Below the pieces are notes generated by a model. That model saw only the letters and a list, made by a program, of their open reading frames with translations, was not told the DNA's origin and searched no databases. A stretch of 20,337 nucleotides of DNA from a virus, in IMG/VR virus record IMGVR_UViG_3300035698_011980, positions 1 to 20,337 of that record; one strand, 5' to 3'. Position numbers and translations under genes: made by a program. Below are positions 1,539 to 14,588 of this stretch, in pieces; the first letter of the stretch is position 1, and each line of letters begins with the position of its first letter.

Positions 1539-3692
1539 ATGCTTACCAGAAAGATTAAATCAGGCGGTGGTGATGATCTTAAACACACCAATATACAGGC
1601 GTATATACAGCACGGGTTTACTCCGGCTGAAATAGCAGGTGGTGGTAAAGAACGGATTGGTTTTTGTCCGTTTTGTGGTAAGGGCAGGAAACATAGCTTT
1701 AGTGTCAACATAGAAACTAAGGATTGGCAGTGCTTCCGTTGTGCAAAACATGGTGGCTTCCAAACATTCTTAAAAGAGATTGTTAGTTTATCAATTGCCA
1801 ATTTTAAAGATAACATTGCACTCAAACTTGCCACCTCCAGAGGCATCAAAATTGAAACAATGCGGCGATGGGATATAGGGTATAACCCACTAAATAATAA
1901 ATACACGATCCCGCTCTATGACATTGACCACGATAAGATCATGAATATTTATACTTATCAAATTGGTAAAAATATTTATGCTACCGCAAACTGTGACCGG
2001 GGATTACTTGGTTGGCATTCACTGGAGGAAAAAAAGGGCGTACATTATTTATGCGAAGGTGTGTGGGATATGCTTTGCATGGATGAAATTCTTACCGTGA
2101 TTGGGCGTGGTGATGATGTGGTTGTGGCATTACCCGGTGCAACTACGTTTAGATCCAATTGGGCACAATTCTTTTTAGATAAAGATGTTATTGATATTCA
2201 CGATTTTGATCATGACCGTACTATACACGGACGTACTGAAATCGGTGCCGGGGCTAAGGGTTCTTTAAAAGTGTATAACATTTTACAAAGCTGTACCCGG
2301 ACACTGGGATTTGTCCATTGGCCTAAGACTAAAAAGAACGGGTTTGATTTACGGGATCATTTTATCGAGCATAAAAAGGATCACTTGATATCCTATAAGC
2401 TGATACAAACTCTTATACAGCAAGAGCCGCCACACATTGAACAGAACAAAGGGACTACTGAGGTAAAAGAAAGTCTTACCGGGGATGGTATGAAAGCGGA
2501 GGATGTGTACACTGGTTATAGTAAATGGCTCAAGCTGAAAACTACGGATGTATTAGATATAATATTCGGATCTATTATAGGAAACCGGCTCCCGGACGAT
2601 CCGATCTGGATGTTCCTTGTGGGTGTTTCAGGTGGTGGAAAGTCCGCTCCGCTGTTGTCTTTGTTTGATGCACCACTTATTCGCAGTACCAGCAACTTTA
2701 CACCTAAAGCCCTTGTAAGTGGTTCAACGGGGCCGGGAGGTGGTGATCCTTCGCTTATCCCAAAACTTGATGGGAAAGTATTAATTATAAAGGATTTGAC
2801 CACTATATTAAAACAACCAGAACAAGATAAAAATGCAATATTCGGAATTTTACGGGATGCTTATGATGGTATAACAGAGCGCCACATCGGAACAGGTGTG
2901 CACCGTTTTTATAAAAGTAGTTTCGGTATGTTATGTGGAACTACACGAGCAATTGATCTAGAGGAAAATAGTACCAGCGCTGCACTGGGAGAACGTTTTA
3001 TCCAATGGGAATATCCAGAGCTAACAGATGATGAGGAATTAGAAATTATTGGTATGGCAATGCGTACCGCTGAGGATCGAAAAGCTGATCAAATGAAAGC
3101 GGAACTAAACGAAATAGCACATAAAGTATTAAATCATAAGTTCACCCATATACCTATTATACGCGATGACCTGCGGTATAAACTAATGCGGTGTGCTCAG
3201 GCATGTAGTAAGTTGCGAGCATATGTGAACAGGGAAAAATATCATAAGACAATTACACATCACGCTTTCAAGGAACTGGGAACCCGGCTAATAAAAGTAT
3301 ATACCAAACTTATGATTGGGATCTCTCAATTCCGTGGGCTTGAGTTTGTAGATGAAAATGTATATACAATTATAAAACATTCTATCCGCAGTACCATACC
3401 AGCACGTATTGATAAAATTCTTATTTACTTTTTTTCCAGTGACCCGGACAAACCAAAAGATCCCCACAATGTAGCGGAGGCAATTGGCTTGCCATATGTT
3501 ACGTGTGAATTACAGATTGGCAATATGGTTATGTTTGGGGCGCTTAATAGAATCAAATTGTCCGGGGCGAAATGTCTTTATAAGTTGGCACCAAGTATGC
3601 TAAAAATGTTAAAAGATGCTGAGTTATATAATATGAAACAAGACAAGAAAAAACAGGTGCTAAAGAGACTAAGAAACCTCAAGTTACCTTGA
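1539..3692 (+). CDS. Primase-helicase (CHC2-type zinc finger, TOPRIM, P-loop ATPase)
   Basis: 717-residue replication protein. Residues 43-68 carry a primase-type zinc-binding site (CPFC at 43-46 and CFRC at 65-68, the latter in WQCFRCAKHGG). A TOPRIM-like region follows: CEGVWD (172-177) gives the catalytic Glu173 and DFDHD (222-226) the acidic pair. The C-terminal half is a P-loop ATPase with Walker A GVSGGGKS (362-369), Walker B LIIKDL (415-420) and a likely arginine finger in LGERFI (Arg486). This order of primase then helicase is that of single-chain phage primase-helicases (T7 gp4 is the best-known example), though the ATPase part looks more like phage/plasmid AAA+ or SF3-type motors than RecA-type ones; that sub-assignment is uncertain. 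It starts MLTRKIKSGGG, a peptide shared with other proteins here. Weak SD TAAGGG (1527-1532). Likely loads at the fork with the upstream polymerase. Confidence 0.88.
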   Translation: MLTRKIKSGGGDDLKHTNIQAYIQHGFTPAEIAGGGKERIGFCPFCGKGRKHSFSVNIETKDWQCFRCAKHGGFQTFLKEIVSLSIANFKDNIALKLATSRGIKIETMRRWDIGYNPLNNKYTIPLYDIDHDKIMNIYTYQIGKNIYATANCDRGLLGWHSLEEKKGVHYLCEGVWDMLCMDEILTVIGRGDDVVVALPGATTFRSNWAQFFLDKDVIDIHDFDHDRTIHGRTEIGAGAKGSLKVYNILQSCTRTLGFVHWPKTKKNGFDLRDHFIEHKKDHLISYKLIQTLIQQEPPHIEQNKGTTEVKESLTGDGMKAEDVYTGYSKWLKLKTTDVLDIIFGSIIGNRLPDDPIWMFLVGVSGGGKSAPLLSLFDAPLIRSTSNFTPKALVSGSTGPGGGDPSLIPKLDGKVLIIKDLTTILKQPEQDKNAIFGILRDAYDGITERHIGTGVHRFYKSSFGMLCGTTRAIDLEENSTSAALGERFIQWEYPELTDDEELEIIGMAMRTAEDRKADQMKAELNEIAHKVLNHKFTHIPIIRDDLRYKLMRCAQACSKLRAYVNREKYHKTITHHAFKELGTRLIKVYTKLMIGISQFRGLEFVDENVYTIIKHSIRSTIPARIDKILIYFFSSDPDKPKDPHNVAEAIGLPYVTCELQIGNMVMFGALNRIKLSGAKCLYKLAPSMLKMLKDAELYNMKQDKKKQVLKRLRNLKLP

Positions 3693-3804
3693 CAGAATGA
3701 ATATAAGAATCGCCCCTGTTTTGTTATGTGTTTTGAGTGGTTCCGGGGTTTTATAGGATTTTCAGAATTATAAAAAGTGTATGTTTTGATTGACAAAATG
3801 AATA
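3689..3804 (+). repeat. Imperfect direct repeat, 15 nt, two copies 101 bp apart
   Basis: TTGACAGAATGAATA (3689-3703) and TTGACAAAATGAATA (3790-3804) differ at one base. The first spans the primase-helicase stop codon; the second lies just before the following weak reading frame. Both contain a perfect TTGACA, but no -10 box lies 16-18 nt further on, so they are not obvious sigma70 promoters. They could be binding sites for a replication or regulatory protein, or chance. Confidence 0.4.
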
Positions 3805-3823
3805 AACTTGAAAGGCGTTGAAA

Positions 3824-4138
3824 ATGTACCGAACCAGAGAAAATACCCGGATCACCTGTAAAATGTGGTGGTATGTTTGGTATGGTTTATGCATTTTGAT
3901 AGTATGTAACTTATTGAAAAACGCAATTCTATTTATAAAATGCTGTAAAAATGCGACGTTTCAGGAGTATACAGGGGGATCAAAAAGTCTAATCTTACTA
4001 CTATATTCTTTACAAATAATAAAGATAATAAAGAAAGTAGTATATAAGAAAGAAGAAAGAAAATGTTTACCCCCATACCCCAATCTATATTGTAGCGTTT
4101 TTACAGCAAAACGTAATTTTTTATCTTTATTTAGTTGA
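3824..4138 (+). CDS. Doubtful small membrane protein, 104 aa
   Basis: Open frame from ATG 3824 with AAAGG (3811-3815) 8 nt upstream. The N-terminal part has one likely membrane-spanning segment (WWYVWYGLCILIVCNLL, residues about 16-32). The second half is low in complexity, rich in Leu, Ile and Lys, and overlaps inverted-repeat sequence. It looks more like chance open sequence than a selected protein. An in-frame TTG at 3818 would add two residues. Treat as a possible gene only. Confidence 0.3.
   Translation: MYRTRENTRITCKMWWYVWYGLCILIVCNLLKNAILFIKCCKNATFQEYTGGSKSLILLLYSLQIIKIIKKVVYKKEERKCLPPYPNLYCSVFTAKRNFLSLFS
3942..4107. repeat. Inverted repeat, 13-nt arms 140 bp apart
   Basis: GCTGTAAAAATGC (3942-3954) and GCGTTTTTACAGC (4095-4107) are reverse complements except for one position that would form a G-U pair in RNA. 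They enclose about 140 bp that include a smaller pair, CTACTATATTC against AAGTAGTAT. This could fold the region into a large stem in RNA or mark protein-binding sites. Confidence 0.35.
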
Positions 4139-4163
4139 TAAATACTGTACCTAATAATATATT
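4135..4163 (+). promoter_or_regulatory. Putative sigma70-like promoter
   Basis: -35 TTGATA (4135-4140) and -10 TATATT (4158-4163) are separated by exactly 17 nt; each matches the consensus at five of six bases. Transcription would begin near 4170, just at the AAGGAG ribosome-binding site of the gene at 4182, leaving a very short leader. It lies at the end of the largest gap in the left half, where a new transcript for the following gene run would be expected. Confidence 0.42.
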
Positions 4164-4181
4164 GATAGTAAGGAGAAAAAT

Positions 4182-4403
4182 ATGGCAACACTAACAAAAA
4201 AATCAGGCGTGGCACGTGCTAAAGATTGGCGTATGGTATCTATGCCTTTCGGAAAATATAAAGGAAGTACGATGTATGAAATTTTCCTTAATGATAAGAG
4301 GTACATTACAGATTTTTTGATACATGAAACTAGTTTATATGGGCCGGTTGCGGATGCTATACAGGCGGCTAATGATTTTATACTTGAACTGCATGGGGGA
4401 TAA
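4182..4403 (+). CDS. FGKYKG-motif protein (ExoX C-terminal/DUF3820-like), 73 aa
   Basis: 73 residues with a strong SD (AAGGAG, 4170-4175, 6 nt before ATG). The core MPFGKYKGSTMYEIF followed by DKRYITDFLI matches the small domain found at the C-terminus of exonuclease X-like proteins and in stand-alone DUF3820-type proteins, where PFGKYKG-x-x-hydrophobic and a Tyr-containing helix are typical. The role of the stand-alone form is not well defined; nucleic-acid binding is likely. The N-terminus, MATLTKKSG, is a variant of the LTRK peptide seen on several proteins here. First gene after the putative promoter. Confidence 0.7.
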   Translation: MATLTKKSGVARAKDWRMVSMPFGKYKGSTMYEIFLNDKRYITDFLIHETSLYGPVADAIQAANDFILELHGG

Positions 4404-4404
4404 T

Positions 4405-4707
4405 ATGGCTCCGGGCATATATGGTGTACATGTTAAAGATAAAATTCTTGCTGAGATAATGAGTGAGGATCTTAAAAATGTTTTACTTTTGCTGGTGCCA
4501 TTTGATAGTGTTGTTGTATCTAATGTGCTATTGGTGCATAAACTAATTGAAATGCTTGGGCATGAAAACAGAAATGTACAGCAGTTGCAAGTTCTTGGTT
4601 CTCAAAATTCGGATAAGATTAATCTGTTAGTACATAGAAATCAGGGATTGCTAAACAAACTCGGAAGAGTGCGCCGGGAAATAAACAAACCTATTGATAA
4701 TTTATAA
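4405..4707 (+). CDS. Hypothetical helical protein, 100 aa
   Basis: Start chosen at ATG 4405 because GGGGGA (4395-4400) lies just upstream and it begins 1 bp after the previous stop; the frame is open further upstream but there it overlaps the FGKYKG gene. The sequence is mostly helical (DLKNVLLLLVPF, LLVHKLIEMLGHENRNVQQLQ, LVHRNQGLLNKLGRVRREI), with heptad-like Leu spacing that would suit a coiled coil. No cysteines or known motif. Function unknown. Confidence 0.7.
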   Translation: MAPGIYGVHVKDKILAEIMSEDLKNVLLLLVPFDSVVVSNVLLVHKLIEMLGHENRNVQQLQVLGSQNSDKINLLVHRNQGLLNKLGRVRREINKPIDNL

Positions 4708-4732
4708 CTTTTTCTTTTACTATGGGGTGTAT

Positions 4733-5038
4733 ATGTCTGTGTCATTTCGTAAATGCATTATCCATGTTTCTGATAATTGTAAGCTTGCTTTAAAATTAAA
4801 TGTTCCTAAAGGGGTTATGATTATTGGTGGACATTCAGAATCACAGAACATGATGGAGACTATTATTGTAGAATACTTTGCACGTACCCCCGGTAAATTT
4901 CAGAAGGTGGGGTATAGTAAAATTAAGTATATAGTACGAATTTCTTTCCGTGATTTTTATTCTGGGATAGCATTACTCAGGGATCATTTTTTCACGGTGG
5001 AGGAAAATATTAAATCATTAGGAACTTTAATCCGTTAG
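4733..5038 (+). CDS. Hypothetical protein, 101 aa
   Basis: Start chosen at ATG 4733 (MSVSFRKCIIHV) because GGGGTG lies just upstream (4724-4729). The longer in-frame start at 4694 would give an odd Phe/Tyr-rich leader overlapping the previous gene. The product is a small alpha/beta protein with strands such as CIIHVSDN, GVMIIGGHS and KYIVRISF and no membrane segment. No family recognised. It ends 6 bp before the clamp-like gene, so probably shares its transcript. Confidence 0.68.
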   Translation: MSVSFRKCIIHVSDNCKLALKLNVPKGVMIIGGHSESQNMMETIIVEYFARTPGKFQKVGYSKIKYIVRISFRDFYSGIALLRDHFFTVEENIKSLGTLIR

Positions 5039-5044
5039 GTTATT

Positions 5045-5731
5045 ATGACTATACTTAATAGTACATGTTTACAGGCTGTTGAATTGATCACACCGGACAA
5101 AAAAACCCCGCTGTTGAATAACGTGCATATTACACACAACGGATCGGTAATAACATCAAACAGTCAAGCGGTAATGGGGGTACAAAGTCCAGCACTAAAA
5201 CAGAAAGCAACAGCGGAGGACATTAACGCCGATACTATTAAAGAGGTACTAAAGGCAATGCCCAAGTCCAGCAAGTATAAGGATCTTATTGACATTGTAG
5301 AAATGCAGCGGGATGGTAACAAAGTATTTTTTACATTTAATGATGGCCTACGGCAGCGTAGTATAGAGGCTAAGACATACACGCATGGGTATATTGATTA
5401 CAAAACTTTGATCAAACGGAATTTAGATTTTGAGGGTAGCCCCTCTGTGTGTATTTCTCAGAAGAGATTACTTACAGCCTTGAGAACCTTTGAAAAGATC
5501 CGGCCAGATAGTTCTGCGGTACACCCGGTATTTATGCATATTACAGATGAGGCGTTGACATTACGGATACAGGTACAGCATACAGATCCGAATGGTAAGA
5601 CAATTACTCAACATGTTTTTTGTGTGCTTAGACAAGATCGTGTACCCCAATGGCTTGAACTAAATGAATGGGAAAAAGGTTTTATTAATAAACCAATACT
5701 ATCACGTAAGAAAATTTTAAAGCGGGGGTGA
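5045..5731 (+). CDS. Possible sliding-clamp-like (DNA polymerase processivity) protein
   Basis: 228 residues, ATG 5045. The pattern resembles DnaN-type clamp domains: an N-terminal PLLNNVHITHNGSVITSN segment (compare P-x-L-x-N-hydrophobic in clamp proteins), a middle part on a KVFFTFNDG strand, and a second stretch, RLLTALRTFEKIRPD then VFMHITDEALTLRIQ, like a repeat of helix plus strand pairs. At 228 residues it is shorter than bacterial beta clamps (about 370), which would suit a two-domain or phage-type clamp. A phage with its own family A polymerase and primase-helicase could well encode one. No sequence motif proves this, so it is a weak fold-level guess; it could be another beta-rich replication factor. 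Confidence 0.42.
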   Translation: MTILNSTCLQAVELITPDKKTPLLNNVHITHNGSVITSNSQAVMGVQSPALKQKATAEDINADTIKEVLKAMPKSSKYKDLIDIVEMQRDGNKVFFTFNDGLRQRSIEAKTYTHGYIDYKTLIKRNLDFEGSPSVCISQKRLLTALRTFEKIRPDSSAVHPVFMHITDEALTLRIQVQHTDPNGKTITQHVFCVLRQDRVPQWLELNEWEKGFINKPILSRKKILKRG

Positions 5732-5732
5732 G

Positions 5733-5849
5733 GTGATAGCGTATATACTAGCATGGATAGGAATTGCAGGTTGTATTATTTGGTTTGCGGCTATTATAAA
5801 ATCATATTATTTAACTTGGAAGGATGGTAAGGATGAAAAAGAATTATGA
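5733..5849 (+). CDS. Tiny single-pass membrane protein, 38 aa
   Basis: GTG start at 5733 with a G-rich SD (GGGGG, 5724-5728), stop TGA 5847-5849. The first 22 residues form one clear membrane helix (IAYILAWIGIAGCIIWFAAII) followed by a charged cytoplasmic tail (WKDGKDEKEL). It lies directly after the clamp-like gene and overlaps the next gene by 4 bp (ATGA). The helix, SD and coupling make it a good candidate despite its size. Role unknown; small phage membrane peptides can act in lysis, superinfection exclusion or membrane anchoring, but nothing here chooses between these. Confidence 0.5.
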   Translation: MIAYILAWIGIAGCIIWFAAIIKSYYLTWKDGKDEKEL

Positions 5850-6088
5850 TAACAAATCGCAGAAAAGTTCTTACACGAACAAAGCCAGCGGAACAAAACA
5901 GAACAGTATTAACAAGGGGCAAGCCACTAAGCCGGGTACAGAAAGTAAAGGGCAACGGAATAAGTAAGCGCAGACTGGATGAGTATTGCCCCCACGGGTG
6001 TACTCGTTTAATAACTGATGGACAATTAATCTGGTGTGGTTATGTTAAGTGTACATACTATAGAACAGCACAAAAAAGAAATTATTAA
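5846..6088 (+). CDS. LTR-repeat, paired-cysteine small protein, 80 aa
   Basis: 80 residues, starting in the ATGA overlap with the tiny membrane gene. The N-terminal half is basic and carries two copies of a short motif, VLTRTKP (8-14) and VLTRGKP (21-27), then PLSRVQKVKGNG. This recalls the N-terminus of the small terminase at 14097 (LTVKGKKPLARQ). The C-terminal half has CPHGC and CGYVKC cysteine pairs, suitable for one zinc ion. Probably nucleic-acid binding. A 44-codon frame at 5833-5967 overlaps it in another frame but has no such features. Confidence 0.6.
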   Translation: MITNRRKVLTRTKPAEQNRTVLTRGKPLSRVQKVKGNGISKRRLDEYCPHGCTRLITDGQLIWCGYVKCTYYRTAQKRNY

Positions 6089-6242
6089 TCAGGTGAACGC
6101 ATCCCCGGAACCGTTGCGGGAGTACATTCATAGTTTATCGGTGGGGCCATACGCGGAGTTACTCTTTGAACTTGAGGCACTGAGGAATCAGAATACAGAA
6201 TTATTATTTTTACTAAACCGAAAGGCGGATGCTGATGGCTAA
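6042..6242 (+). CDS. Hypothetical helical protein, 66 aa
   Basis: Start taken at ATG 6042; a GTG at 6036 would add two residues. Neither has a strong SD, and the gene overlaps the previous one by 47 bp. The product is helical and acidic (TIEQHKKEIINQVN, AELLFELEALRNQNTELLFLL), the second part having leucine heptads that could form a coiled-coil dimer. No family recognised. It overlaps the next gene's likely start by 8 bp. Confidence 0.55.
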   Translation: MLSVHTIEQHKKEIINQVNASPEPLREYIHSLSVGPYAELLFELEALRNQNTELLFLLNRKADADG

Positions 6243-6534
6243 AGCTAAGAAAGAAGATGGGCCGGTTCTTAAACATACTTACCCCCGGAGGGTAAAGGTG
6301 TTATTTGTAAAGCTGGAAACCATAGAGATCGATCAAGCCCTCGATCATGTTATGGATGAAGAGTTGGAGGCACAATTCGCAATTGTTAATAAAGGGTTGC
6401 AAGGCGAAAGAAAAGATAGATCTGGTACGGTAGTAGGTAGCGTCTTAGCCGTACAGAGTATTATTGTTGATCCTATGTTTGGACTCCCCTCCAGAGAAAA
6501 GATGCGTAAACTAATGTCGAAGGCTAAAAAATAA
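6235..6534 (+). CDS. Hypothetical protein, 99 aa
   Basis: Start placed at ATG 6235 (MAKAKKEDG) because AAAGGCGG (6221-6228) gives the better spacing; an in-frame ATG at 6229 adds two residues. It has basic ends (MAKAKK, KMRKLMSKAKK) and a central mixed alpha/beta segment (RRVKVLFVKLETIEI, VVGSVLAVQSIIVDP). No motif recognised. It lies 2 bp before the ParB-like gene, so probably cotranscribed with it. Confidence 0.65.
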   Translation: MAKAKKEDGPVLKHTYPRRVKVLFVKLETIEIDQALDHVMDEELEAQFAIVNKGLQGERKDRSGTVVGSVLAVQSIIVDPMFGLPSREKMRKLMSKAKK

Positions 6535-6536
6535 TT

Positions 6537-7268
6537 ATGCTGACAAGAAAAACAGCCGCCTCCGTTAGCGCCATAAATTCTGGTCCCGTTTTGTGGACAA
6601 AAGAAACACGCTCCGTTGCTGAGTTACATCCAAATCCGCGCAACGTAAATGCAATGACAAAGCGGCAATATAAAGAACTGATAATATCCATTGAAAAATT
6701 TGGATATGTGGAACCAATAGTAATCAATAGAGACAATCAGATCATCGGCGGATTTCACCGCTGGAGTACATTCAATGAGGCGGGGCAAACAGAATTAATT
6801 ATCGATGTCCGTGTTCCCAGCCGTTTACTTTTCCCCCATGAATGTGATGAATTAATGTTAAGGCTTAATCAAAGCGGTGAGGTGGATAGGGATGTGCTGT
6901 TGCGGAATTTTGAAAAGAAAGATTTACTTGACTATGGTTTTTCTGAAAAGGAAATCACAGTTGAGGATCAAACGCAACCCGGCAACACATTGAGCCGTAC
7001 CGATCCAGAAAAGGATAAGAAACTTTTTATTAAAGAATTGAAAAAGTTTCATGATCAGATCATGCTATATGATACCAGTAAGCTGAGCACGGATTCTAAA
7101 CTTAGTGAGGCGTTACAGTGTATAGAAGATGCCATTGGGGATATATATGTGTACAATGAAAAAAGCTACCAAGAAAAATCCACGCACGGTTTAGTAGTTC
7201 GGCAGCTTAGTATGTACCTTTGTGATATTCTTTGGGCTTTCTCGGAGTTGGTGGTTGACAATGATTAA
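6537..7268 (+). CDS. ParB-like nuclease/partition-type N-terminal domain protein
   Basis: 243 residues. Residues about 25-85 follow the ParB/Srx N-terminal pattern: VAELHPNPRNVN, then a helix ending SIEKFGYVEPIVINRDN, then IIGGFHRWSTFNEAG, in the place of the family's GHxR box. Phage proteins with only this domain often sit beside DNA methyltransferases and may act as DNA-binding, nuclease or NTP-dependent adaptor proteins; here a methyltransferase follows at once. The C-terminal 100 residues are helical and unassigned. It begins MLTRKTAASVS, the shared LTRK peptide. No strong SD precedes the ATG. The next gene starts inside its 3' end. Confidence 0.8.
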   Translation: MLTRKTAASVSAINSGPVLWTKETRSVAELHPNPRNVNAMTKRQYKELIISIEKFGYVEPIVINRDNQIIGGFHRWSTFNEAGQTELIIDVRVPSRLLFPHECDELMLRLNQSGEVDRDVLLRNFEKKDLLDYGFSEKEITVEDQTQPGNTLSRTDPEKDKKLFIKELKKFHDQIMLYDTSKLSTDSKLSEALQCIEDAIGDIYVYNEKSYQEKSTHGLVVRQLSMYLCDILWAFSELVVDND

Positions 7269-8940
7269 ACATAAAGAACCGATAGTACCCATTCGTAAAC
7301 AAATGAATTTTGTTTTGTCGTTCGGTGACTTATCAAAAATTGCAAAAGAGATCGCCGAAAAGCACGGATGGGATAACAAAAAGCAAACGGATGGTGAGGT
7401 TGTAGCTTTAATGCACTCTGAGCTATCCGAATGTCTTGAGTTTATGAGACACGGCAACCCGCCATCGGATCATATACCAAATTTTACAGGCGTGGAAGAA
7501 GAGCTTGCGGATGAAATTATTCGTATTATGCACTATGCCGCATCAAAAAAATTAAGAATTGCTGAGGCTGTCATCAGCAAAATAATATTTAATAACTCAA
7601 GACCGTACAAACACGGCGGTAAAAAAATTCTAAGGGGCACTATGTCGATTAAAATCATTTGTGGTGATAACGTTTCGGTGTTGCGTACTATGCGGGCCAA
7701 CTCAATAGATGCCGTGGTGACTGATCCCCCATATGGTATCCGCTTTATGGGTAAGACGTGGGATTATGATGTGCCAACGGTTGAGCAATGGCAAGAGGTA
7801 TTAAGGGTATTAGTGCCGGGGGGATACCTTTTGTCATTTGCTGGAACGAAAACCCAACACCGCATGGCTGTGAACATTGAGGATGCAGGTTTTGAAATTC
7901 GTGATATGATCGCATGGGTGTACGGTTCCGGGTTTCCTAAAAGTGTAAACATTGCTAAACAATTTGATAGGGTGGCTGGTGTTGAAAGAAAAATTCTTAA
8001 AAGAAAGCGTATATTCCGCAACACACAAAGCTGGGAATCTGCATCCCCTAATGGAATGTTAAGCGTAGGGGAACAGAATTTTGATACCACTCAGGACATG
8101 ACAAACGAGGCGAAGGAGTGGTCAGGGTACGGAACAGGGCTAAAACCGGCTTTAGAACCCCTTACCTTAGCCCGTAAGCCGTTTGGTGGCACACTTACAG
8201 ACAACGTAAAAGAGAATGAAAGCGGCGGTTTAAATATTGATGCGTGCCGTGTTGGATCAGATACTATGAAAAGAACATACTCTGATGGGAAATTCAAATC
8301 ACATAACCGATCAATGGCTGGCCATAACACCGGAAGGATTGATGGTGGTACTGTTGTTGGCAGATGGCCCGCTAACTTAATACACGATGGATCGGATGAG
8401 GTGTTGGCTGTATTTCCAAACACCGGCCCATCACGGGCAGCAAAAAGAGGATTACAACATTCTGGCCGACATGGTGGATTTGCTGATCTTGGTGGTAATA
8501 TAAAAGAGGGTACAGATTCTATACGCGGACATAATGATAATGGTGGATCGGCGGCGCGGTTTTTCTATTGTGCTAAATGTTCAAGCAAGGATCGCAATGA
8601 GGGCTTAAAGGATTTTACAACAGTGTCAAGAAAACAACGTACCGGACGAAATACAGACAGTGCAATAAACGGAATGGCAGGATCTTGGGCACCTAATAAA
8701 AATGATCACCCAACGGTAAAACCCACGACCTTAATGCAATACCTTGTTCGGCTGGTTACACCTAAAGGGGGTAAGGTTTTAGTTCCGTGGTGTGGTTCAG
8801 GTAGTACAGGGAAAGCCTGTAATTATGAGGGCTTTGATTTTGTAGGAATTGATAATGATCTGAGAGCAACCGAGATCGCAAAAGTCAGGGCTAACTTTCC
8901 CTCCAGTGAAAAGAAAACTGTTCTAAGGCGAAATATATGA
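7261..8940 (+). CDS. MazG-like pyrophosphohydrolase domain fused to a beta-class DNA methyltransferase
   Basis: 559 residues from ATG 7261, which overlaps the ParB-like gene by 8 bp. Residues about 20-122 are MazG-like: acidic motif HSELSECLE (52-60) and EEELADEII (79-87), ending in the family's usual RPYKHGGKK tail. From residue 128 (MSIKIICGDN) the chain is a DNA amino-methyltransferase of the beta order: motif IV DPPYG (155-159) comes first and the SAM-binding motif I, PWCGSGSTG (509-517), near the end, after HPTVKP (483-488). It likely makes N6-adenine or N4-cytosine methyl marks. The central GLKPALEP and ARKP motifs are typical of phage enzymes. The join lies at an A7 run; with A6 the MazG part would stop at TAA 7631-7633 and the methyltransferase would start at its own ATG 7642. 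So this may be two genes. Confidence 0.85.
   Translation: MIKHKEPIVPIRKQMNFVLSFGDLSKIAKEIAEKHGWDNKKQTDGEVVALMHSELSECLEFMRHGNPPSDHIPNFTGVEEELADEIIRIMHYAASKKLRIAEAVISKIIFNNSRPYKHGGKKILRGTMSIKIICGDNVSVLRTMRANSIDAVVTDPPYGIRFMGKTWDYDVPTVEQWQEVLRVLVPGGYLLSFAGTKTQHRMAVNIEDAGFEIRDMIAWVYGSGFPKSVNIAKQFDRVAGVERKILKRKRIFRNTQSWESASPNGMLSVGEQNFDTTQDMTNEAKEWSGYGTGLKPALEPLTLARKPFGGTLTDNVKENESGGLNIDACRVGSDTMKRTYSDGKFKSHNRSMAGHNTGRIDGGTVVGRWPANLIHDGSDEVLAVFPNTGPSRAAKRGLQHSGRHGGFADLGGNIKEGTDSIRGHNDNGGSAARFFYCAKCSSKDRNEGLKDFTTVSRKQRTGRNTDSAINGMAGSWAPNKNDHPTVKPTTLMQYLVRLVTPKGGKVLVPWCGSGSTGKACNYEGFDFVGIDNDLRATEIAKVRANFPSSEKKTVLRRNI
7632..7644 (+). promoter_or_regulatory. Internal ribosome-binding site and start of the methyltransferase part
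   Basis: AAGGGG (7632-7637) lies 4 nt before the in-frame ATG at 7642, which is the natural first residue of a stand-alone methyltransferase (MSIKIICGDN). The layout TAA-GGGG-CACT-ATG is that of adjacent genes. A separate methyltransferase could therefore be made even if the fusion is real. Confidence 0.55.
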
Positions 8941-8971
8941 TTCACTTTTAATATTGGGAGGGGTGTGTACT

Positions 8972-9367
8972 ATGCAAAGTAAAACTATTCTGTTATTTGT
9001 TTTTCTGTATTTGTTATTCTGTGTTGTATGTGGATATATGTTTGGTGGATGCACCACAGAAAATACTGGTTTGTCTGTTCCTGTTAAGGCTATTCCTGAT
9101 TCTGTTTCTGTTTCTGTATTAGTATTACAAAGTGATAGCCTTTCAGATCCAATCTCAGCCGGGTTAGCTTGTGGCTTTTTTCCCCAGTGGAATCTTGATC
9201 ATTACCCGCTGCCGGATTCTGTCCGGGTATGTATTGGCGATACGCTTTGGGTGAACGCATGGATACCTGATAGCGTTTGTGTAGTTGGTACGTGTACGAT
9301 GGTTGGTTCTGGCTGGGGTTGTAATAATTCGTATATTATTTTTTCAGATACTATTATTTACTTTTAA
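8972..9367 (+). CDS. Probable exported or membrane-anchored protein, 131 aa
   Basis: ATG 8972 chosen for the strong SD GGGAGGGG (8956-8963). The N-terminus has a Lys at position 4 and a long hydrophobic core (ILLFVFLYLLFCVVCGYMF) followed by GGC, so it is either a signal peptide, possibly a lipoprotein type (FGGC is a poor fit to the lipobox), or a membrane anchor. The outer part is Val/Ser/Asp-rich with repeated PDSV blocks (residues about 42, 75 and 97), several Trp and Cys residues, and looks beta-rich. The role is unknown; an outer spanin-like or surface-exclusion protein are possibilities without direct support. Confidence 0.68.
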   Translation: MQSKTILLFVFLYLLFCVVCGYMFGGCTTENTGLSVPVKAIPDSVSVSVLVLQSDSLSDPISAGLACGFFPQWNLDHYPLPDSVRVCIGDTLWVNAWIPDSVCVVGTCTMVGSGWGCNNSYIIFSDTIIYF

Positions 9368-9381
9368 TTCTGGAGGGTGTC

Positions 9382-9726
9382 ATGCTTACTGTTTATATTG
9401 CTAGCCCGTACACGCGCGGGGATGTAGGTCAGAATGTATTGGCTCAGTTAGATACTGCAAATATTTTGATGGATCATGGTGTCTGTCCTATTGTTCCGTT
9501 GTTTGCACAGTACCAACATATGAGACATCCACGGGATTATGAAGATTGGATTACAATTAATATTGAAAAATTGCGGCGCTGTGATGTGCTGGTACGCTTA
9601 CCCGGTAAAAGTTCCGGGGCTGATGAGGAGGTAAAGTATGCTGAGGAAAATGGTATCCCGGTGGTGTATGGTTTACTTGAGTTTATTGATAAGGTGAATA
9701 CATTTGAAGAGCGTTGTACTTTATGA
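9382..9726 (+). CDS. Nucleoside 2-deoxyribosyltransferase-like protein (DUF4406 type)
   Basis: 114 residues with SD GGAGGG just upstream. IASPYTRGD at 6-14, the A-x-x-L-x-x-x-G-x-x-P-x-x-P pattern (LMDHGVCPIVPLF), YEDWITINI, CDVLVRLPG (residues 67-75) and SSGADEEVKYAEENGIPV follow the nucleoside 2-deoxyribosyltransferase superfamily, where the Asp near the N-terminus binds the sugar and the Glu of GADEEV is catalytic. In phages such proteins are thought to take part in nucleotide salvage or in making modified bases. Close to a MazG-like domain and a DNA methyltransferase, it fits a nucleotide-handling or DNA-modification group. The next gene overlaps by 4 bp. Confidence 0.82.
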   Translation: MLTVYIASPYTRGDVGQNVLAQLDTANILMDHGVCPIVPLFAQYQHMRHPRDYEDWITINIEKLRRCDVLVRLPGKSSGADEEVKYAEENGIPVVYGLLEFIDKVNTFEERCTL

Positions 9727-9869
9727 TCTGTCCATTCTATAAAGGGGATAAGAGGGATATACCATGTACATACTGTGATGGGAAAGGAGAGATGACAAAA
9801 GAGAAAGCACATTTATATATTCACTATTCACGTTTTAATAAGGTATACGATAATGGAAAGAAAACTTAA
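9723..9869 (+). CDS. Small cysteine-knuckle protein, 48 aa
   Basis: Starts in the ATGA overlap with the deoxyribosyltransferase-like gene and ends at TAA 9867-9869. Cysteines at 3, 15 and 18; PCTYCDGKGE resembles the CxxCxGxG knuckle of DnaJ-type zinc-binding proteins, and the first CPFY could give a fourth ligand nearby. No family assigned. Coupling and motif make it likely real. The following gene overlaps it by 17 bp. Confidence 0.55.
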   Translation: MICPFYKGDKRDIPCTYCDGKGEMTKEKAHLYIHYSRFNKVYDNGKKT

Positions 9870-9972
9870 ACATACAACGAAATATGAAAAGCTTAATCAC
9901 TACCATGAAATTATGGAGGATCAAAAGCTGTTACTATTGGGGGCAAAAAGTTTGTTGCGGACAAGCCGATGA
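9853..9972 (+). CDS. Short frame, probably the 5' part of a split gene, 39 aa
   Basis: ATG 9853 to TGA 9970-9972, no strong SD. The product is basic and helical (MERKLKHTTKYEKLNHYHEI). Near its end the frame passes a GGGGG run (9939-9943). With one more G the chain would read on as LLLGGKKFVADKPMIPLLKA into the gene at 9969, giving a single protein of 99 residues. The segment GGKKFVADKPMIPLLKALND in that frame looks like real protein but has no normal start codon of its own. I think the two belong to one gene. Confidence 0.5.
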   Translation: MERKLKHTTKYEKLNHYHEIMEDQKLLLLGAKSLLRTSR

Positions 9973-10151
9973 TCCCACTACTCAAGGCACTGAATGACTG
10001 CGGGTTAAAAACGTGGTCGCACTGTTATGGACATGAGGAGAAATCATCTTTTGTAAATATACTTATGCCTAAAGGAATGAGTATAATGATAGACGAACAC
10101 TCAAACATTGGAGAGCAGCGGCTACATATTGGCTGGCCGCGTACTAATTAA
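9969..10151 (+). CDS. Small CxGH-motif phage protein, probably the 3' part of a split gene, 60 aa
   Basis: From ATG 9969 (4-bp overlap with the frame before). PLLKALNDCGLKTWSHCYGH followed by a strand (SFVNILMP) matches a pattern seen in small phage proteins: L-x-x-L-N-x-x-G-[IL]-x-T-x-x-x-C-x-G-H, then a beta strand. Function is not known; a metal-binding Cys/His site is possible. Coding-like sequence in the same frame extends upstream to at least 9936, so the true N-terminus is probably in the gene at 9853, joined by a frameshift at the G5 run. Confidence 0.6.
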   Translation: MIPLLKALNDCGLKTWSHCYGHEEKSSFVNILMPKGMSIMIDEHSNIGEQRLHIGWPRTN

Positions 10152-10179
10152 TTTTATCTTTTACGGTTGCGGAGGGTAT

Positions 10180-10620
10180 ATGGATACAGGACTAATAATT
10201 TTACTTGCGTTTGTTATTATGGTTATCATATCAGTATGGAGTAATCACCTAGTTGTAAAGAAAAATAAGAATAAGATTGATGAGTTAGTACGGCAAACAA
10301 AACAGCCATTGAAAGATCGTGCCATCCCTGTTGCCAAATTACAAAAAGGTATTGCTCATAACGATGATGATGAATATACGGATACGGTGTTTGACGATAG
10401 AGGATTTTTACATTCTCATCCAAAACTAGCCGCACGATCCGGGCTTAATTGTATTGAACATGTTATTATAGATCGGACTGATTGGCAACAGGCACAAAAC
10501 CTTCCTAATTTTATTAATGAGATTAGTGATAAAATTTGTATTATGGTTCCGTGGAAAGATAAATTGAAAGTAAGGTCTGAACTGGATACTATACTCCGGG
10601 GGTGGTTACGTGCTGAATAA
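10180..10620 (+). CDS. Membrane-anchored hypothetical protein, 146 aa
   Basis: ATG 10180 chosen because GGAGGG (10171-10176) precedes it; the frame is open upstream but without an SD. Residues about 4-22 are one membrane helix (LIILLAFVIMVIISVW), followed by a Lys-rich stop-transfer segment (KKNKNKIDELVRQ), so the rest is probably cytoplasmic. The soluble part is unassigned, with strands and helices (CIEHVIIDRTDW, ISDKICIMVPWKDKLK). The next gene starts 10 bp before its end. Confidence 0.65.
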   Translation: MDTGLIILLAFVIMVIISVWSNHLVVKKNKNKIDELVRQTKQPLKDRAIPVAKLQKGIAHNDDDEYTDTVFDDRGFLHSHPKLAARSGLNCIEHVIIDRTDWQQAQNLPNFINEISDKICIMVPWKDKLKVRSELDTILRGWLRAE

Positions 10621-11035
10621 ATCGCGGGTTCCGGTATACATCCGGGTAGCGCTATTGATGGCGATCAGTACTTGGGAATTTAAAAAGTATATGATCGGTC
10701 TTATTAATTGCCAAAAGCCAACAGAAGAGGATTATCAAACCATTATAGATGTTATTGATTTACAATGTTCACTATGTAGTACAACAGGATCATCGGGTAC
10801 AATACTTATTTATGACTGTGTTGAGTGTCCGGTAAGTATACACCTGAATAATACAGGATGCATGGAATCACCATGGATTGAAGCTAGAGATACATTATTA
10901 AAATTAAGAACAGCCCTTTCCCCAGTGAAAAGCAAACCGTATAATGAAGTATACCCCTCTAAGGTTCGGTTGTGTAAACTGGATGCGCTGGATGGCTGTA
11001 CTGAAATGATAAATTTTCTCAGGGAGTTATACTAA
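10610..11035 (+). CDS. Hypothetical cysteine-containing protein, 141 aa
   Basis: GTG start at 10610 with a G-rich SD inside the previous gene, overlapping it by 11 bp. Mixed helical protein with two CxxC pairs, CSLC and CVEC, about 16 residues apart (QCSLCSTTGSSG, YDCVECP), suited to one zinc ion, plus further single cysteines. No family recognised. It ends in TAATG with the next gene, so they are coupled. Confidence 0.65.
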   Translation: MLNKSRVPVYIRVALLMAISTWEFKKYMIGLINCQKPTEEDYQTIIDVIDLQCSLCSTTGSSGTILIYDCVECPVSIHLNNTGCMESPWIEARDTLLKLRTALSPVKSKPYNEVYPSKVRLCKLDALDGCTEMINFLRELY

Positions 11036-11340
11036 TGGCAAAGCGTATACACCCGAACAGTCGATCAATAAGATCAGGACAAACGGTTTATTGGATTAAT
11101 TATTATATAGACTACCGCCCGGAGAGCAGACCACCGGCAGCAATCGAACCTTTAAGAATTGGATCGCATAGAACGATTAACAATGAGGGGGAGATGGTAA
11201 CTATAACAAACTTGAATTTATTTAAAAGAGTTCTATCCGGTGGTTTTGTAAAACCCATTGTGTTCTATTCTCGGAAACGGGCACAAACATATATTGATAA
11301 AAACTTTTCTGCTACGGAGGTGTTTCATGGGGCAACGTAA
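11035..11340 (+). CDS. Hypothetical basic protein, 101 aa
   Basis: ATG 11035 inside the TAATG overlap. Basic and Tyr-rich (MAKRIHPNSRSIRSGQ, YWINYYIDYRPE). A central LRIGSHRTI and a C-terminal KPIVFYSRKRAQTYIDK suggest a small beta-rich fold. No membrane segment or cysteine motif. No family recognised. The next gene starts inside its 3' end, in another frame, with its own SD. Confidence 0.65.
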   Translation: MAKRIHPNSRSIRSGQTVYWINYYIDYRPESRPPAAIEPLRIGSHRTINNEGEMVTITNLNLFKRVLSGGFVKPIVFYSRKRAQTYIDKNFSATEVFHGAT

Positions 11341-11518
11341 AGCTACACCTGAATGTAAAAACTTTCTTTGTTCCACATGGGTTAATCAAGAAATGTGTGC
11401 CGTTCGGAGTATATGTCCAGAGCGCAAAATGTTTAATCGTTTGGTTAAGAAATTGAAAAGTGCTGCGAGTGCATCCGTTGTTTGGAAAAGATTTACTGAT
11501 AAAGAAATACACATTTAA
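11327..11518 (+). CDS. Small four-cysteine protein, 63 aa
   Basis: ATG 11327 with CGGAGG (11315-11320) 6 nt upstream; the longer in-frame start at 11258 is unlikely because it overlaps the previous gene without an SD. Four cysteines are spaced C-x4-C-x8-C-x5-C (CKNFLC, then CAVRSIC), which could bind zinc or an iron-sulphur cluster. The rest is a basic helix (FNRLVKKLKSAASAS). Function unknown. Confidence 0.62.
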   Translation: MGQRKATPECKNFLCSTWVNQEMCAVRSICPERKMFNRLVKKLKSAASASVVWKRFTDKEIHI

Positions 11519-11548
11519 TTTTATTTACCATTTAGAAAGGTTATGGAT

Positions 11549-12925
11549 ATGCATCCAAAATTACAAGCTGAAAAGATTCAAAAAATGGCTGAGGGTTCTA
11601 TGTATACATACTTGGAACTTAGGGAAACATTTGATCAGATAAAAAGCTGGACTGATTTTGAAAGTTCGTTCAAGTTATTACAAAATGCTATACACATGTC
11701 AACGACACAGCAAATATCTCTTATAGACACGGCAACCCAACTATATCATGAGTGGCTAGTAAAAAAGGAATCACAAGATACCCGTGTAAGCCAACACCTC
11801 ACCTATATCGATGAACAGCCTATAGGCTTTAAAGATATACACCGGGCCATATATACACCAAAGCAAACTATAGTAATTCTACAGACAGGCGAGAAAGGGA
11901 TCGCCACATATAAGAAAGGCGATAGTTATTCACGGGATACTGGATTTTGGTGTGCATACTCTAAAGCATTAAGAAGTAAAATAAAAGCATCTGCATCAGC
12001 CGGTGGGTTGCTAGTACTTAAACAGATAACAAAAGAAATCATTGATGCGTGTGTTATACATAGAACCTTTTCATCGTTTATCAAAGACGTAAAGAAACAG
12101 AAAGATCCTGAACACTTTGAAAAGGGCGGTATTGTTGATGGTAATAAACGCCGGTTTATAAAAGAAACTATTCAACCGGCTGTTGATAAAATTACCGATG
12201 GGTACAAAAAAGATACATCGGTACTAGAAAACGTTTATGCTTTAAGACATCCGAATGGTACGTACTTTGAAAAGCATACATCTTTAGATGAATTTGTTTT
12301 TGTTAAAGAAATAACAAAAGCATCCACTTTTATTACACCGATGCACGCTGATGATTATGCTAATAAGTATCCAACACTTGAGAAACTTACCATTGTTGAA
12401 TTTTCTTATCCAGCGTTAAAAAAGACTGGAACACTTATTGATAAGAAACATTATAGAATTCGTATTGGATACTTTTATGTATTCTCAGCAACTGAAGATC
12501 GCGTATTAATGTGTGAATATGCTGAGAGCAAACAGTATGAAACTATGAAAGATGCTGAGTACGTTCTTGAACATTACGTTGATACGGATAAACATTCATG
12601 TACTATAATAACTGTTCCTGCTGGTGCCCGTGAATGTTCTCTTTCTCTCTTAAAGGCTGCTGGTGATAAAATTTCAAATGAGCCAAATCATCATGTTAAC
12701 CAGTGTTTTAAATTATATCATAATCAAGGGCACTATGCTATCAAAGATTGGTGCGGTGGGGCACACCCTGATAATAATTATGCGTGGCTAATGCGTACCA
12801 GTGGTACAGGACATGTGTATGCTGGCAAAGTTACTAAAGTAAAATCAGTCCACAATATTACTGAAAAGGAATTTGCCGATATGTGTGGTGGTCATCCTGA
12901 ATGGTTTGAATTAATTGCTGCTTAA
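11549..12925 (+). CDS. Large orphan phage protein, about 458 aa
   Basis: Start placed at ATG 11549 since AAAGG (11536-11540) is 8 nt upstream; ATG 11543 is only 2 nt from it. I do not recognise a family. The N-terminal 90 residues are helical. The segment TIVILQTGEKGIATYKKGD, then GFWCAYSKALRSKI (about 106-150), is a strand-turn-strand plus helix pattern. The C-terminal half has a Cys/His-rich stretch (QCFKLYHNQGHYAIKDWCGG, then HPDNNYAWLM) and ends MCGGHPEWFELIAA. It has no membrane segment or P-loop. It is the largest unassigned gene here and stands in a run of small unknown genes. Confidence 0.78.
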   Translation: MHPKLQAEKIQKMAEGSMYTYLELRETFDQIKSWTDFESSFKLLQNAIHMSTTQQISLIDTATQLYHEWLVKKESQDTRVSQHLTYIDEQPIGFKDIHRAIYTPKQTIVILQTGEKGIATYKKGDSYSRDTGFWCAYSKALRSKIKASASAGGLLVLKQITKEIIDACVIHRTFSSFIKDVKKQKDPEHFEKGGIVDGNKRRFIKETIQPAVDKITDGYKKDTSVLENVYALRHPNGTYFEKHTSLDEFVFVKEITKASTFITPMHADDYANKYPTLEKLTIVEFSYPALKKTGTLIDKKHYRIRIGYFYVFSATEDRVLMCEYAESKQYETMKDAEYVLEHYVDTDKHSCTIITVPAGARECSLSLLKAAGDKISNEPNHHVNQCFKLYHNQGHYAIKDWCGGAHPDNNYAWLMRTSGTGHVYAGKVTKVKSVHNITEKEFADMCGGHPEWFELIAA

Positions 12926-12960
12926 CTTTTTCTTTCTACCTATTTTAAAGGCGGTGGTAT

Positions 12961-13281
12961 ATGTTAGATAAACATGGGGTGTACGTGTTCCACGATACCG
13001 AATCTCAAAAGACACGCGGGATTGGTATGGCAAGTGGTAAGCTTTGGATTATGAAAAAAGGCCGTGATGGTGATTGGGTTCTGGATCGTTTGGTGTCTCT
13101 TGATGATATTGTGTCACAAGATAAAGAGTTCCAAACGGAGATCACTTTGTTGAAAGAAAGCTTTAGAGCGATACGGCGAAAGGCTAATGAGGTATTTACA
13201 AAACTACAGGGACGCGACAAGATCAAGCCTGTTCCTGTTGTTGAGGCTATGGCTATTGTTCAAAGTATCTTAGACGTATAA
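12961..13281 (+). CDS. Hypothetical protein, 106 aa
   Basis: ATG 12961, preceded by a good SD (AAAGGCGG). The N-terminal 45 residues look like small beta strands (HGVYVFHD, GKLWIMKKGRDGDWVL), the rest helical (FQTEITLLKESFRAIRRKANEVFTKLQ). It ends in an Ala/Val-rich helix (VVEAMAIVQSILDV). No family recognised. Twelve bases separate it from the next gene. Confidence 0.65.
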   Translation: MLDKHGVYVFHDTESQKTRGIGMASGKLWIMKKGRDGDWVLDRLVSLDDIVSQDKEFQTEITLLKESFRAIRRKANEVFTKLQGRDKIKPVPVVEAMAIVQSILDV

Positions 13282-13293
13282 CCGGGGGCCGAT

Positions 13294-13497
13294 ATGCACG
13301 GTACAAAGTTAGGGGATTACACGGTGTTGGATCTGTATACTAATTGTAACCACGGCACCCCCGCAGAAAAATGTGCTAAGTGTCCATTGACAGAGAATAA
13401 CCCTATGTGTACTGGTATTAATGATTTGTTAAAGGAGGAACTTTCAGAGGAAACAGAAAATGGAAAGGAAAGTGTTAATGATTATTATTTCTTTTAA
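13294..13497 (+). CDS. Small cysteine-rich protein, 67 aa
   Basis: ATG 13294 with a G-rich SD (GGGGG). Four cysteines sit in the middle: NCNHGTPAEKCAKCPLTENN, then MC; with the nearby His this is a plausible zinc site. The tail is acidic (EELSEETENGKES). Function unknown. Together with other genes here it belongs to a group of small paired-cysteine proteins. Confidence 0.6.
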   Translation: MHGTKLGDYTVLDLYTNCNHGTPAEKCAKCPLTENNPMCTGINDLLKEELSEETENGKESVNDYYFF

Positions 13498-13514
13498 TTT
13501 AACTGGGAGGTATT

Positions 13515-13841
13515 GTGGCATTAACTCGTAAAGGTTCCGGGTCTAAGAAGTCAAGTTCTACACCAGCCCATACAGTGAATAAAGGGGGACGATCTGGATC
13601 TGGTGCTGTTCCGGGTGCGGGTAGAAAACCGGGTGGCTCTAAAGTTTCAGATGGTGCTAAGGTTATGAAAGGCAATCAAAAAATCGTACATGTCAAGCTG
13701 AGAGAACTAGCCGATAGGGTTGCGGTTGGGGAGTTTGGTTGGGATGCTGAATTTAAAGGGCATTCTCTTTTTCCAGAGGTATCGAGACTTTTGGAAATGC
13801 TCAAAGGATCACTTGCATATAAACAACCCGAACCGAGATAA
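13515..13841 (+). CDS. LTRK-start basic protein with a GAGRxPG motif, 108 aa
   Basis: GTG start at 13515 with GGGAGG (13505-13510). The N-terminal 55 residues are basic and low in complexity, probably disordered: MALTRKGSGSKKSSS, then GAGRKPGGSK. The small terminase at 14097 has the same two elements in the same order (LTRK, then GAGRTPG). The C-terminal half is a helical region (LRELADRVAVGEFGWD, FPEVSRLLEMLKGSL) unlike the terminase. It could be a DNA-binding packaging accessory or a relic of duplication of the terminase N-terminus. It is the last gene before the terminator. Confidence 0.65.
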   Translation: MALTRKGSGSKKSSSTPAHTVNKGGRSGSGAVPGAGRKPGGSKVSDGAKVMKGNQKIVHVKLRELADRVAVGEFGWDAEFKGHSLFPEVSRLLEMLKGSLAYKQPEPR

Positions 13842-14096
13842 ACTAATAGCCTACGGTATATAAAGTAAGCTGAGAAGCTAACGACATGGTAAAATCACCT
13901 TAGCCGGTCTAAATGCTAATCCGGCCTGAAAGCCCTCTTTCCCAGTGTCTGAGGGCTTTTTTATTTATAGCTAAGTTATTGAGTTTTCCTATTCTAAGAT
14001 GTACCCTATTGCATTAATTACGTTATTATAGTACATTATTACTATGAAACACAGTTAAATGATTAGACAGCAACCCTATAACAATCAATTACTTAT
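13842..14096. other. Non-coding gap upstream of the terminase genes with small hairpins
   Basis: 255 bp without a gene. From left to right: AGCT-GAGA-AGCT (13868-13879), GGT-AAAATC-ACC (13888-13899), GCCGG (13903-13907) pairing with CCGGC (13921-13925), then the intrinsic terminator. The last 130 bp are AT-rich; I found no convincing -35/-10 pair and no SD before the ATG at 14097. A gap just before the small terminase gene is also a natural place for the packaging (cos or pac) site. Confidence 0.5.
13931..13962 (+). terminator. Rho-independent terminator
   Basis: AGCCCTC (13931-13937) pairs perfectly with GAGGGCT (13951-13957) around a 13-nt loop, followed by a run of six T (13957-13962). 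It ends the transcript of the accessory gene run and separates it from the packaging genes. Confidence 0.85.
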
Positions 14097-14588
14097 ATGG
14101 CAAGGTTGACAAGAAAGAAGGCAGTCTTAACTGTCAAGGGTAAGAAACCTCTTGCACGTCAATCACAGCCTACTCCTAAAAGTAAAGGCAATCCCAGAGG
14201 TGCAGGGCGTACGCCCGGATTCAATCATGGCCTTACTCTCAAGAGAATTATAGAGGCGTGCTATAACCAATATGGCCTTGTTACCTATATTGCTGAGGAG
14301 CTACAGGTTGAGCGGGCTACCGTTTACAAATGGCAAAAGACCTATCCAGAGGTAAAAGCGGCGATGGCTGATGCCAATGAACACAGACTTGACAGAACAG
14401 AAAACGCGATGTTTAAGGTTATTGACACACAAGGATACGATGCCGCTAAGCTTATGCAATTTCATATTAAATGTAAAGGTAAACAACGCGGCTATGTTGA
14501 AAAACTAGAACTTGCAGGACAGTTTGGACATGATATCACAATAGGCATCGGACTACCCAAAGGGGAAAAAGCGGATGACTATAACTAA
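14097..14588 (+). CDS. Terminase small subunit
   Basis: 163 residues directly upstream of, and overlapping, the large terminase gene. A helix-turn-helix lies at about 48-85 (KRIIEACYNQYGLVTYIAEE, then ATVYKWQKTYPEV), as in small terminases that recognise the packaging site. It is followed by a helical part (HRLDRTENAMFKVIDTQGYD, then AAKLMQFHIKCKGKQRGYVE) usual for oligomerisation in this family. The N-terminal 40 residues are basic and carry MARLTRKKAVLTVKGKKPLA and a GAGRTPG motif, both shared with other proteins here. No SD is visible before the ATG. It would start packaging by binding DNA and recruiting the large subunit. Confidence 0.87.
   Translation: MARLTRKKAVLTVKGKKPLARQSQPTPKSKGNPRGAGRTPGFNHGLTLKRIIEACYNQYGLVTYIAEELQVERATVYKWQKTYPEVKAAMADANEHRLDRTENAMFKVIDTQGYDAAKLMQFHIKCKGKQRGYVEKLELAGQFGHDITIGIGLPKGEKADDYN

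Follow-up and report, generated by a model that had tools for sequence, protein, structure and literature searches.

Why should proteins with different domains, encoded in one piece of phage DNA, begin with the same few residues? The question is raised by the IMG/VR record IMGVR_UViG_3300035698_011980, whose whole length of 20,337 bases is the window analysed here and which probably represents part of a tailed-phage genome. Five of its genes carry the peptide LT[RK]K at their very start: those of the primase (MLTRKIK, with the tag MLTRK at 1539-1553), of a small FGKYKG protein (MATLTKKS, tag MAT-LTKK, Lys replacing Arg), of a ParB-like protein (MLTRKTA, tag MLTRK), of a basic protein that we name by its first position, 13515 (MALTRKG, tag MA-LTRK), and of the small terminase, TerS (MARLTRKK, tag MAR-LTRKK). 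All five N-termini are as the original prediction, made from the letters of this DNA, had described them. Within this one phage fragment the shared tag is genuine, unusual and strong in statistical terms. We favour, at a probability of about 0.4, the reading that LT[RK]K is a short docking peptide, carried on basic N-terminal arms and read by one partner, over the view that these are basic arms of common origin.

The motif and the starts of its genes

When the whole window was scanned in six frames, LT[RK]K was found five times, always on the plus strand and every time at a gene start, where it begins two to four residues into the genes at 1539, 4182, 6537, 13515 and 14097. The shorter LT[RK] occurs seven times in 34 curated proteins, all within the first 24 residues: once in each of the five carriers and twice in the small protein encoded at 5846, which has VLTRTKP at residues 8-14 and VLTRGKP at residues 21-27, again as predicted. 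[RK]K lies inside the first seven residues of all five carriers. A further N-terminal stretch, RKILCRTNP in the gene at 849-1121, resembles RKVLTRTKP of the 5846 gene (E=0.58), which may reflect a diverged copy of the motif or else chance.

The start positions of the tagged genes are well fixed. None of the six genes, counting that at 5846, has an upstream in-frame start before the stop. Downstream alternatives, looked for over 20-45 codons, are absent in the 5846 gene and in the primase (30 codons), amount in ParB to a TTG at codon 19 and in TerS to the TTG of the tag's own Leu, and comprise GTG at codon 10 and ATG at codon 18 in the FGKYKG gene and GTG at codon 21 in the 13515 gene. The FGKYKG gene has AAGGAG upstream.

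To what is the tag attached? In the primase a short arm is followed by the zinc ribbon; in the ParB-like protein the tag lies on an N-terminal extension ahead of the ParB domain; in TerS it opens a basic arm that ends in GAGRTPG, after which a helix-turn-helix region begins. By annotation the carriers are mostly DNA-handling proteins (primase, ParB-like, ExoX-C-like, TerS), with one, the 13515 protein, without assignment and, at an E of 0.01, without any match in Pfam or PHROGs. The bodies of the carriers had been taken to be unrelated. In a weak alignment (E=1.3), 13515-13640 and 14097-14219 have in common the tag, GAGR[KT]PG and the basic linker between them, the arm of the 13515 protein ending in GAGRKPGG. 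Because both arms end in this way, the two proteins may not be independent, and the 13515 protein may derive from a terminase arm.

Likeness in the peptide

Does the likeness reside in the DNA or in the peptide? The Leu codons of the five tags are all different (CTT, CTA, CTG, TTA and TTG), the Thr codons are of three kinds and the third place is AGA, CGT or AAA. Over the 12 bases of the tag the mean pairwise identity comes to 0.675; synonymous codons drawn at random from the codon usage of eight genes of this phage give 0.674 (P=0.48), and the 30 bases upstream of the tagged genes have an identity of 0.29. These values speak for rejecting a leader or ribosome-binding element copied at the DNA level. 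Because the tag codons match a random synonymous choice and the upstream DNA is unrelated, the likeness resides in the peptide, in agreement with the original prediction. At the DNA level the tags now share nothing, and an old copying event followed by silent divergence is possible.

The same codons bear on the idea that selection on the start of the mRNA, for A-rich early codons and weak structure, makes certain peptides recur. Lysine codons are indeed A-rich, as are the recurrent M[KR][ST]K starts of the relative described below. The variety of Leu, Thr and third-place codons speaks against it, however, as does the A content of codons 2-6, which is 0.4 in three of the five tags and 0.6 in the other two; moreover, selection at the level of bases gives no prediction of LTRK. 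We therefore regard this explanation as improbable.

Controls and shuffles

Could the sharing be a product of chance, found by looking for any recurrence? The motif was picked after inspection, the counts cover this window only, and the N-terminal background is lysine-rich. As control we took 178 loci on viral and genome contigs, most of them fetched by their terminase (L002 was obtained through ParB, L034 and L035 through the portal); the loci L004-L030, fetched by a pattern for the tag, were excluded, and duplicate contigs were dropped only among L207-L255 (4 of 49). A single simple caller of open reading frames (ORFs) set the ORFs and their starts in window and controls. By this caller LT[RK]K is N-terminal in 5 of 35 window ORFs and in 1 of 3493 control ORFs, the sole match being the TerS of L061 (MSLTKKQ), and internal copies number 27 in 696,131 control residues. 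In 45 further loci none of 633 ORFs has it at the N-terminus and two have it internally. The caller recovers all five window tags; among the 21 pattern-fetched loci known to bear such a start, however, it picks up just 10. Since its sensitivity is about one half, 1 in 3493 is perhaps twofold too low.

A count that does without the caller, accepting any start codon at most five codons before LT[RK]K with the frame open for 40 more codons, is the safer control. Over 2.32 Mb of control DNA it gave 39 motifs in frames open for 40 codons, nine of them with a nearby start. These nine candidates fall in nine of the 178 loci, one in each and never two, whereas all five tags of the window were counted. 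Those in L192 and L061 look like real starts; for the other seven an upstream start is likely or the case is undecided. L192, a Paenibacillus kobensis contig, has MALTRKIKTKG nine residues past a stop and is the likeliest real single occurrence among the controls besides L061.

Shuffling led to the same picture. In each shuffle of residues 2-10 across 33 genes of the window we took whichever 4-mer had the most sharers, so that the picking of the motif is already allowed for. The window has a 4-mer shared by four genes in exact form and by five with K and R merged; the maxima of the shuffles were 3 and 4 (20,000 each, 0/20,000 reaching the observed value). Random sets of 34 control ORFs (5000 draws) gave a best-shared 4-mer on at most three, and in none of the 89 control loci with at least 20 ORFs do three N-termini share a 4-mer if Met is left out; when 4-mers containing Met are counted, one locus has three sharers (L185, MSKQ). 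The excess at N-termini, which the original prediction had proposed to test, is thus borne out for this window, and chance, which we rate as the least probable of all the explanations considered here, is not a sensible account of the sharing.

The same start does occur elsewhere, one gene at a time. Scanning for a strong ribosome-binding site followed by MALTRK retrieved 27 contigs, in 21 of which the start lies in an open frame and in 6 of which it does not. All 21 belong to two families (12 MALTRKFLSALGI-like and 9 MALTRKDYRWLA-like), with a single such gene in each locus; a second candidate in L012 was discarded, as it is internal, 318 residues into its frame. The MALTRKFLSALGI-like proteins (L005, L008, L013 and others; 12 of the 27 pattern-fetched loci) represent an independent, family-level occurrence of the MALTRK start.

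The nearest relative and other homologues

Is the tag kept in related phages? Neither whole-window megablast in phages nor scans of viral contigs with single proteins (primase, portal and the large terminase, TerL) found a close relative, and scans with a terminase alignment reached 46% at best among the matches listed. Searching with a pattern built on YADSAEPARIEE, a peptide of TerL, retrieved, among 50 stretches, L239 (IMGVR_UViG_3300037504_000316), and a second, clade-specific TerL pattern retrieved L239 only. The complete 16.2 kb of this record, L256, is the nearest relative found (TerL 61%, DUF4406-like protein at 9382 55%, portal 49%, ParB 45%, the protein encoded at 5045 37%, TerS 34%). 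No gene in L239/L256 starts with LT[RK]K. In the alignment of the ParB N-termini MKSKKKSMSNVVWTTETR of the relative stands against MLTRKTAASVSAINSGPVLWTKETR of the window, and in that of TerS MAKAKRKTPTVKK stands against MARLTRKKAVL. The protein syntenic with that of the 5846 gene (L256:2011-2214) has no LTR, its similarity being confined to 13 residues (E=0.1). The primase, the FGKYKG protein and the 13515 protein have no counterpart in the L256 fragment, and because these three are absent the comparison of tagged proteins with the relative is limited to ParB and TerS. The primase has no match either in L239 or in L250, both of them fragments; L250 (4.3 kb, portal 46%) was set aside because it holds none of the tagged genes. 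The alignment of orthologues that had been proposed as a check therefore came out against conservation of the specific peptide: all orthologues seen lack the tag together.

ParB matches were found in 11 control loci, nine of which gave an ORF in the right frame; these nine start, with starts as set by the caller, about 11-17 residues nearer the domain than that of the window. The TerS-like protein of a Rhizobium phage starts directly at the matched domain, the arm being absent. Searching phages with TerS gave 16 records, with identities of at most 32% among the matches listed, and searching with the FGKYKG protein gave no match. These comparisons support the view that the tag of ParB and TerS sits on extensions that their homologues would lack, and, as far as sequences can tell, the tag belongs to this lineage alone.

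The relative has a recurrent start of its own. Among its 21 hand-curated genes four or five begin with M[KR][ST]K, namely the 5045-like gene, the methyltransferase, ParB, the 4927 gene and perhaps the 2011/2017 gene, whose start is ambiguous (GTG gives MKLKTK, TTG gives MKTK), hence the two counts. The same pattern starts 9 of 3493 control ORFs, at most one per locus in 113 loci with at least 15 ORFs, and five sharers were reached by 0/20,000 shuffles of the relative in fixed register. The 5045 orthologue of the relative starts with MKTKKKKRSTDKK, an arm that the 5045 protein of the window does not have. At L256:796-6183 the looser M[KR]xK opens 6 of the 21 curated genes (from a slightly different list than that used for M[KR][ST]K), compared with 2.2% of the 3493 control ORFs and a control-locus maximum of 4/27 (113 loci). 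As a second shared tag this start is suggestive only.

Possible readings: docking, basic arms or a protease signal

What would such a peptide do? If it is a short linear motif for docking, placed at the very tip of N-terminal arms that are basic and probably disordered, LT[RK]K would be read by one partner through a groove that matches it and is probably acidic, and this partner would gather or activate the tagged, mostly DNA-acting proteins at one site on the phage DNA. It may be encoded by the phage outside this fragment or be a host protein, and a ParA/MinD-type ATPase would be the best-precedented candidate. Tags and partner would diverge together, in which case the relative would use a different basic peptide in the same place. 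Docking by one partner would explain the identity of the residues, and a basic arm their basicity. The docking, compartment or assembly role that the original prediction had suggested draws on the peptide-level likeness, on the excess over chance and on the extensions absent in homologues, and is set back by the relative, whose ParB and TerS do not have LTRK.

Several points weigh against docking. The ParB and TerS of the nearest relative, while lacking LTRK, have lysine-rich N-termini in the same place, so that what has been kept over that distance is a basic N-terminus rather than LTRK itself. The recurrent start of the relative is not extreme in every test: if the 2011 gene starts at GTG, its four sharers are reached by 6/20,000 fixed-register shuffles, and in a register-free shuffle with K=R and S=T merged the observed six are reached by 36/5000; because its codons are A-rich, translation initiation could also contribute to it. 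Scans with Pfam and/or PHROGs, which covered 23 of the 34 curated proteins (all but 11 small ones) of what is probably a fragment, turned up no ParA/MinD protein or evident hub. Finally, an AlphaFold2 model of ParB, built on a two-sequence alignment, has a predicted local distance difference test (pLDDT) score of 41.2, with residues 1-20 at 26-27 and residues 1-26 without secondary structure; so poor a model fits an unstructured arm and proves nothing, which leaves the presumed disorder without structural support.

Some of these points favour a serious rival, in which the arms are nucleic-acid-binding tails of old common origin, a single N-terminal module having been copied between genes and kept basic, with no protein partner involved. 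Besides the behaviour of the relative, it can claim that K+R make up 21% of residues 2-10 in window proteins and 16% in controls, that the 13515 protein and TerS share linker and arm end as well as the tag, that the TerS proteins of Flavobacterium phage 1/32 and of L136 have lysine-rich arms without LTRK, and that most carriers handle DNA. An AT-hook has a GRP core with basic flanks; the TerS and 13515 arms end in GAGRTPG and GAGRKPG, with no GRP. The original prediction had called a plain basic tail the dull alternative, one that would not need the same four residues. This objection weakens it, since a plain basic arm needs no Leu-Thr ahead of the basic pair, and yet it is basicity that the relative retains. 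In addition, copying would have left no codon trace in the tags, the leaders are unrelated, and past the tag the arms vary in both length and sequence. We consider this origin quite possible, and place it second to docking.

If docking holds, could its address be renewed from lineage to lineage? One may picture a lineage-private tag of four residues, replaced together with its reader, that would direct different proteins of replication, of a partition-like function and of packaging to a single hub or site, as LTRK in this phage and as [KR][ST]K on orthologous proteins of the relative. We find this extended proposal unlikely.

A tag that is N-terminal, short, basic and common to different proteins might also be a recognition signal for a host or phage protease, for instance an N-terminal ClpX-type degron that times the removal of early proteins. 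Lambda O is a phage replication protein with such a signal. To our knowledge, however, published ClpX N-motifs do not match LTRK, and TerS acts late, so that its degradation alongside the primase is not obvious. We judge a protease signal very improbable, even more so than selection on the mRNA start.

Known N-terminal tags

How does the peptide compare with known ones? The closest analogues appear to be N-terminal docking and targeting tags, and what would be new is one peptide serving many proteins of one genome. According to PMC7993993 and PMC10241942, partner proteins of ParA/MinD ATPases rely on short, disordered N-terminal extensions of positive charge that are attached to a variety of domains and for which the phrase 'luggage tag' is used. 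Like these partners (ParB/Spo0J, SopB, MinE, PomX, McdB), ParB and TerS of the window have a short positive N-terminal extension ahead of an unrelated domain, and one carrier is itself ParB-like. Unlike here, a ParA/MinD ATPase generally has one cognate partner with its own peptide (two in the Pom system), whereas this genome puts one peptide on five or six proteins.

The capsid targeting sequence (CTS) of T4 is, according to PMC3012670, a conserved short targeting sequence on highly diverse phage proteins. The LT[RK]K tags resemble it as a short N-terminal peptide common to otherwise different phage proteins. The carriers of the CTS enter the scaffolding core of the prohead, whereas those of the window are a primase, a ParB-like protein, TerS and small proteins; none is known by annotation as an internal head protein, two being without assigned function. 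T4 gp32 has, according to PMC12893549, an N-terminal LAST motif, Lys-Arg-Lys-Ser-Thr, that makes a protein-protein contact in phage replication. It too is a short N-terminal peptide combining basic residues with Ser/Thr. It differs in that it is described for gp32 contacting its neighbour, whereas several different proteins are tagged here, and in order and composition, as LTRK and LTKK do not contain three basic and two Ser/Thr residues in a row. A narrow word search of open papers turned up none on shared N-terminal motifs or hubs, which is not proof of absence.

Should LT[RK]K prove to be a docking signal, small phages would organise replication and packaging proteins by one reusable peptide address, the tag would be a ready bait for finding the hub, and lysine-rich, poorly conserved N-termini of phage proteins would have to be seen as fast-evolving interaction tags rather than noise. 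Even as a basic arm only, it would illustrate with unusual clarity either convergence at the peptide level or the sharing of an old module within one genome.

Genes of the window

The tagged genes and the main untagged ones are collected in Table 1. The end of a family A DNA polymerase also lies in the window (PF00476, E=1.1e-31), and no tRNA was found in it.

Table 1. Coordinates of tagged and untagged genes in the window
Feature	Position	Strand	Basis or remark
Primase(-helicase) gene	1539..3692	+	phrog_47 E=1.9e-13; CHC2 zinc ribbon PF01807, residues 35-107
FGKYKG small protein, ExoX C-terminal-like	4182..4403	+	PF20600 E=9.4e-6, 25.4 bits, just below cut-off 26.5
Conserved protein, untagged	5045..5731	+	40% identity to the relative's orthologue in alignment; weak RusA-like PHROG match E=0.002
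Small protein, two Cys pairs, two LTR-x-K copies	5846..6088	+	possible sixth carrier
ParB-like protein	6537..7268	+	phrog_620 E=1.7e-16, residues 23-181
Basic protein, GTG start	13515..13841	+	GGGAGG upstream
Small terminase (TerS)	14097..14588	+	phrog_309 E=2.4e-6
Large terminase (TerL), untagged	14650..15927	+	phrog_3717 E=1.1e-47; start inferred from homologues
Portal protein, C-terminal head-morphogenesis region, untagged	17548..19800	+	phrog_2662 E=6.5e-76

The 5045 protein was considered as a hub resembling a sliding clamp and dropped: no relative of it was found among phage records or PDB sequences, and its AlphaFold2 model, again from a two-sequence alignment, is unusable at a pLDDT of 41.5. 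Directly after the ParB-like gene, 7258-8940 encodes a fusion of a MazG-like pyrophosphatase (phrog_3301, residues 23-123) and a DNA methyltransferase (phrog_67, residues 118-542). Between TerL and the portal, 16179-17544 holds a gene without family match and one resembling S-adenosylmethionine methyltransferases, and a cupin gene follows the portal at 19797-20174; the genes of these last two stretches look like inserted cargo.

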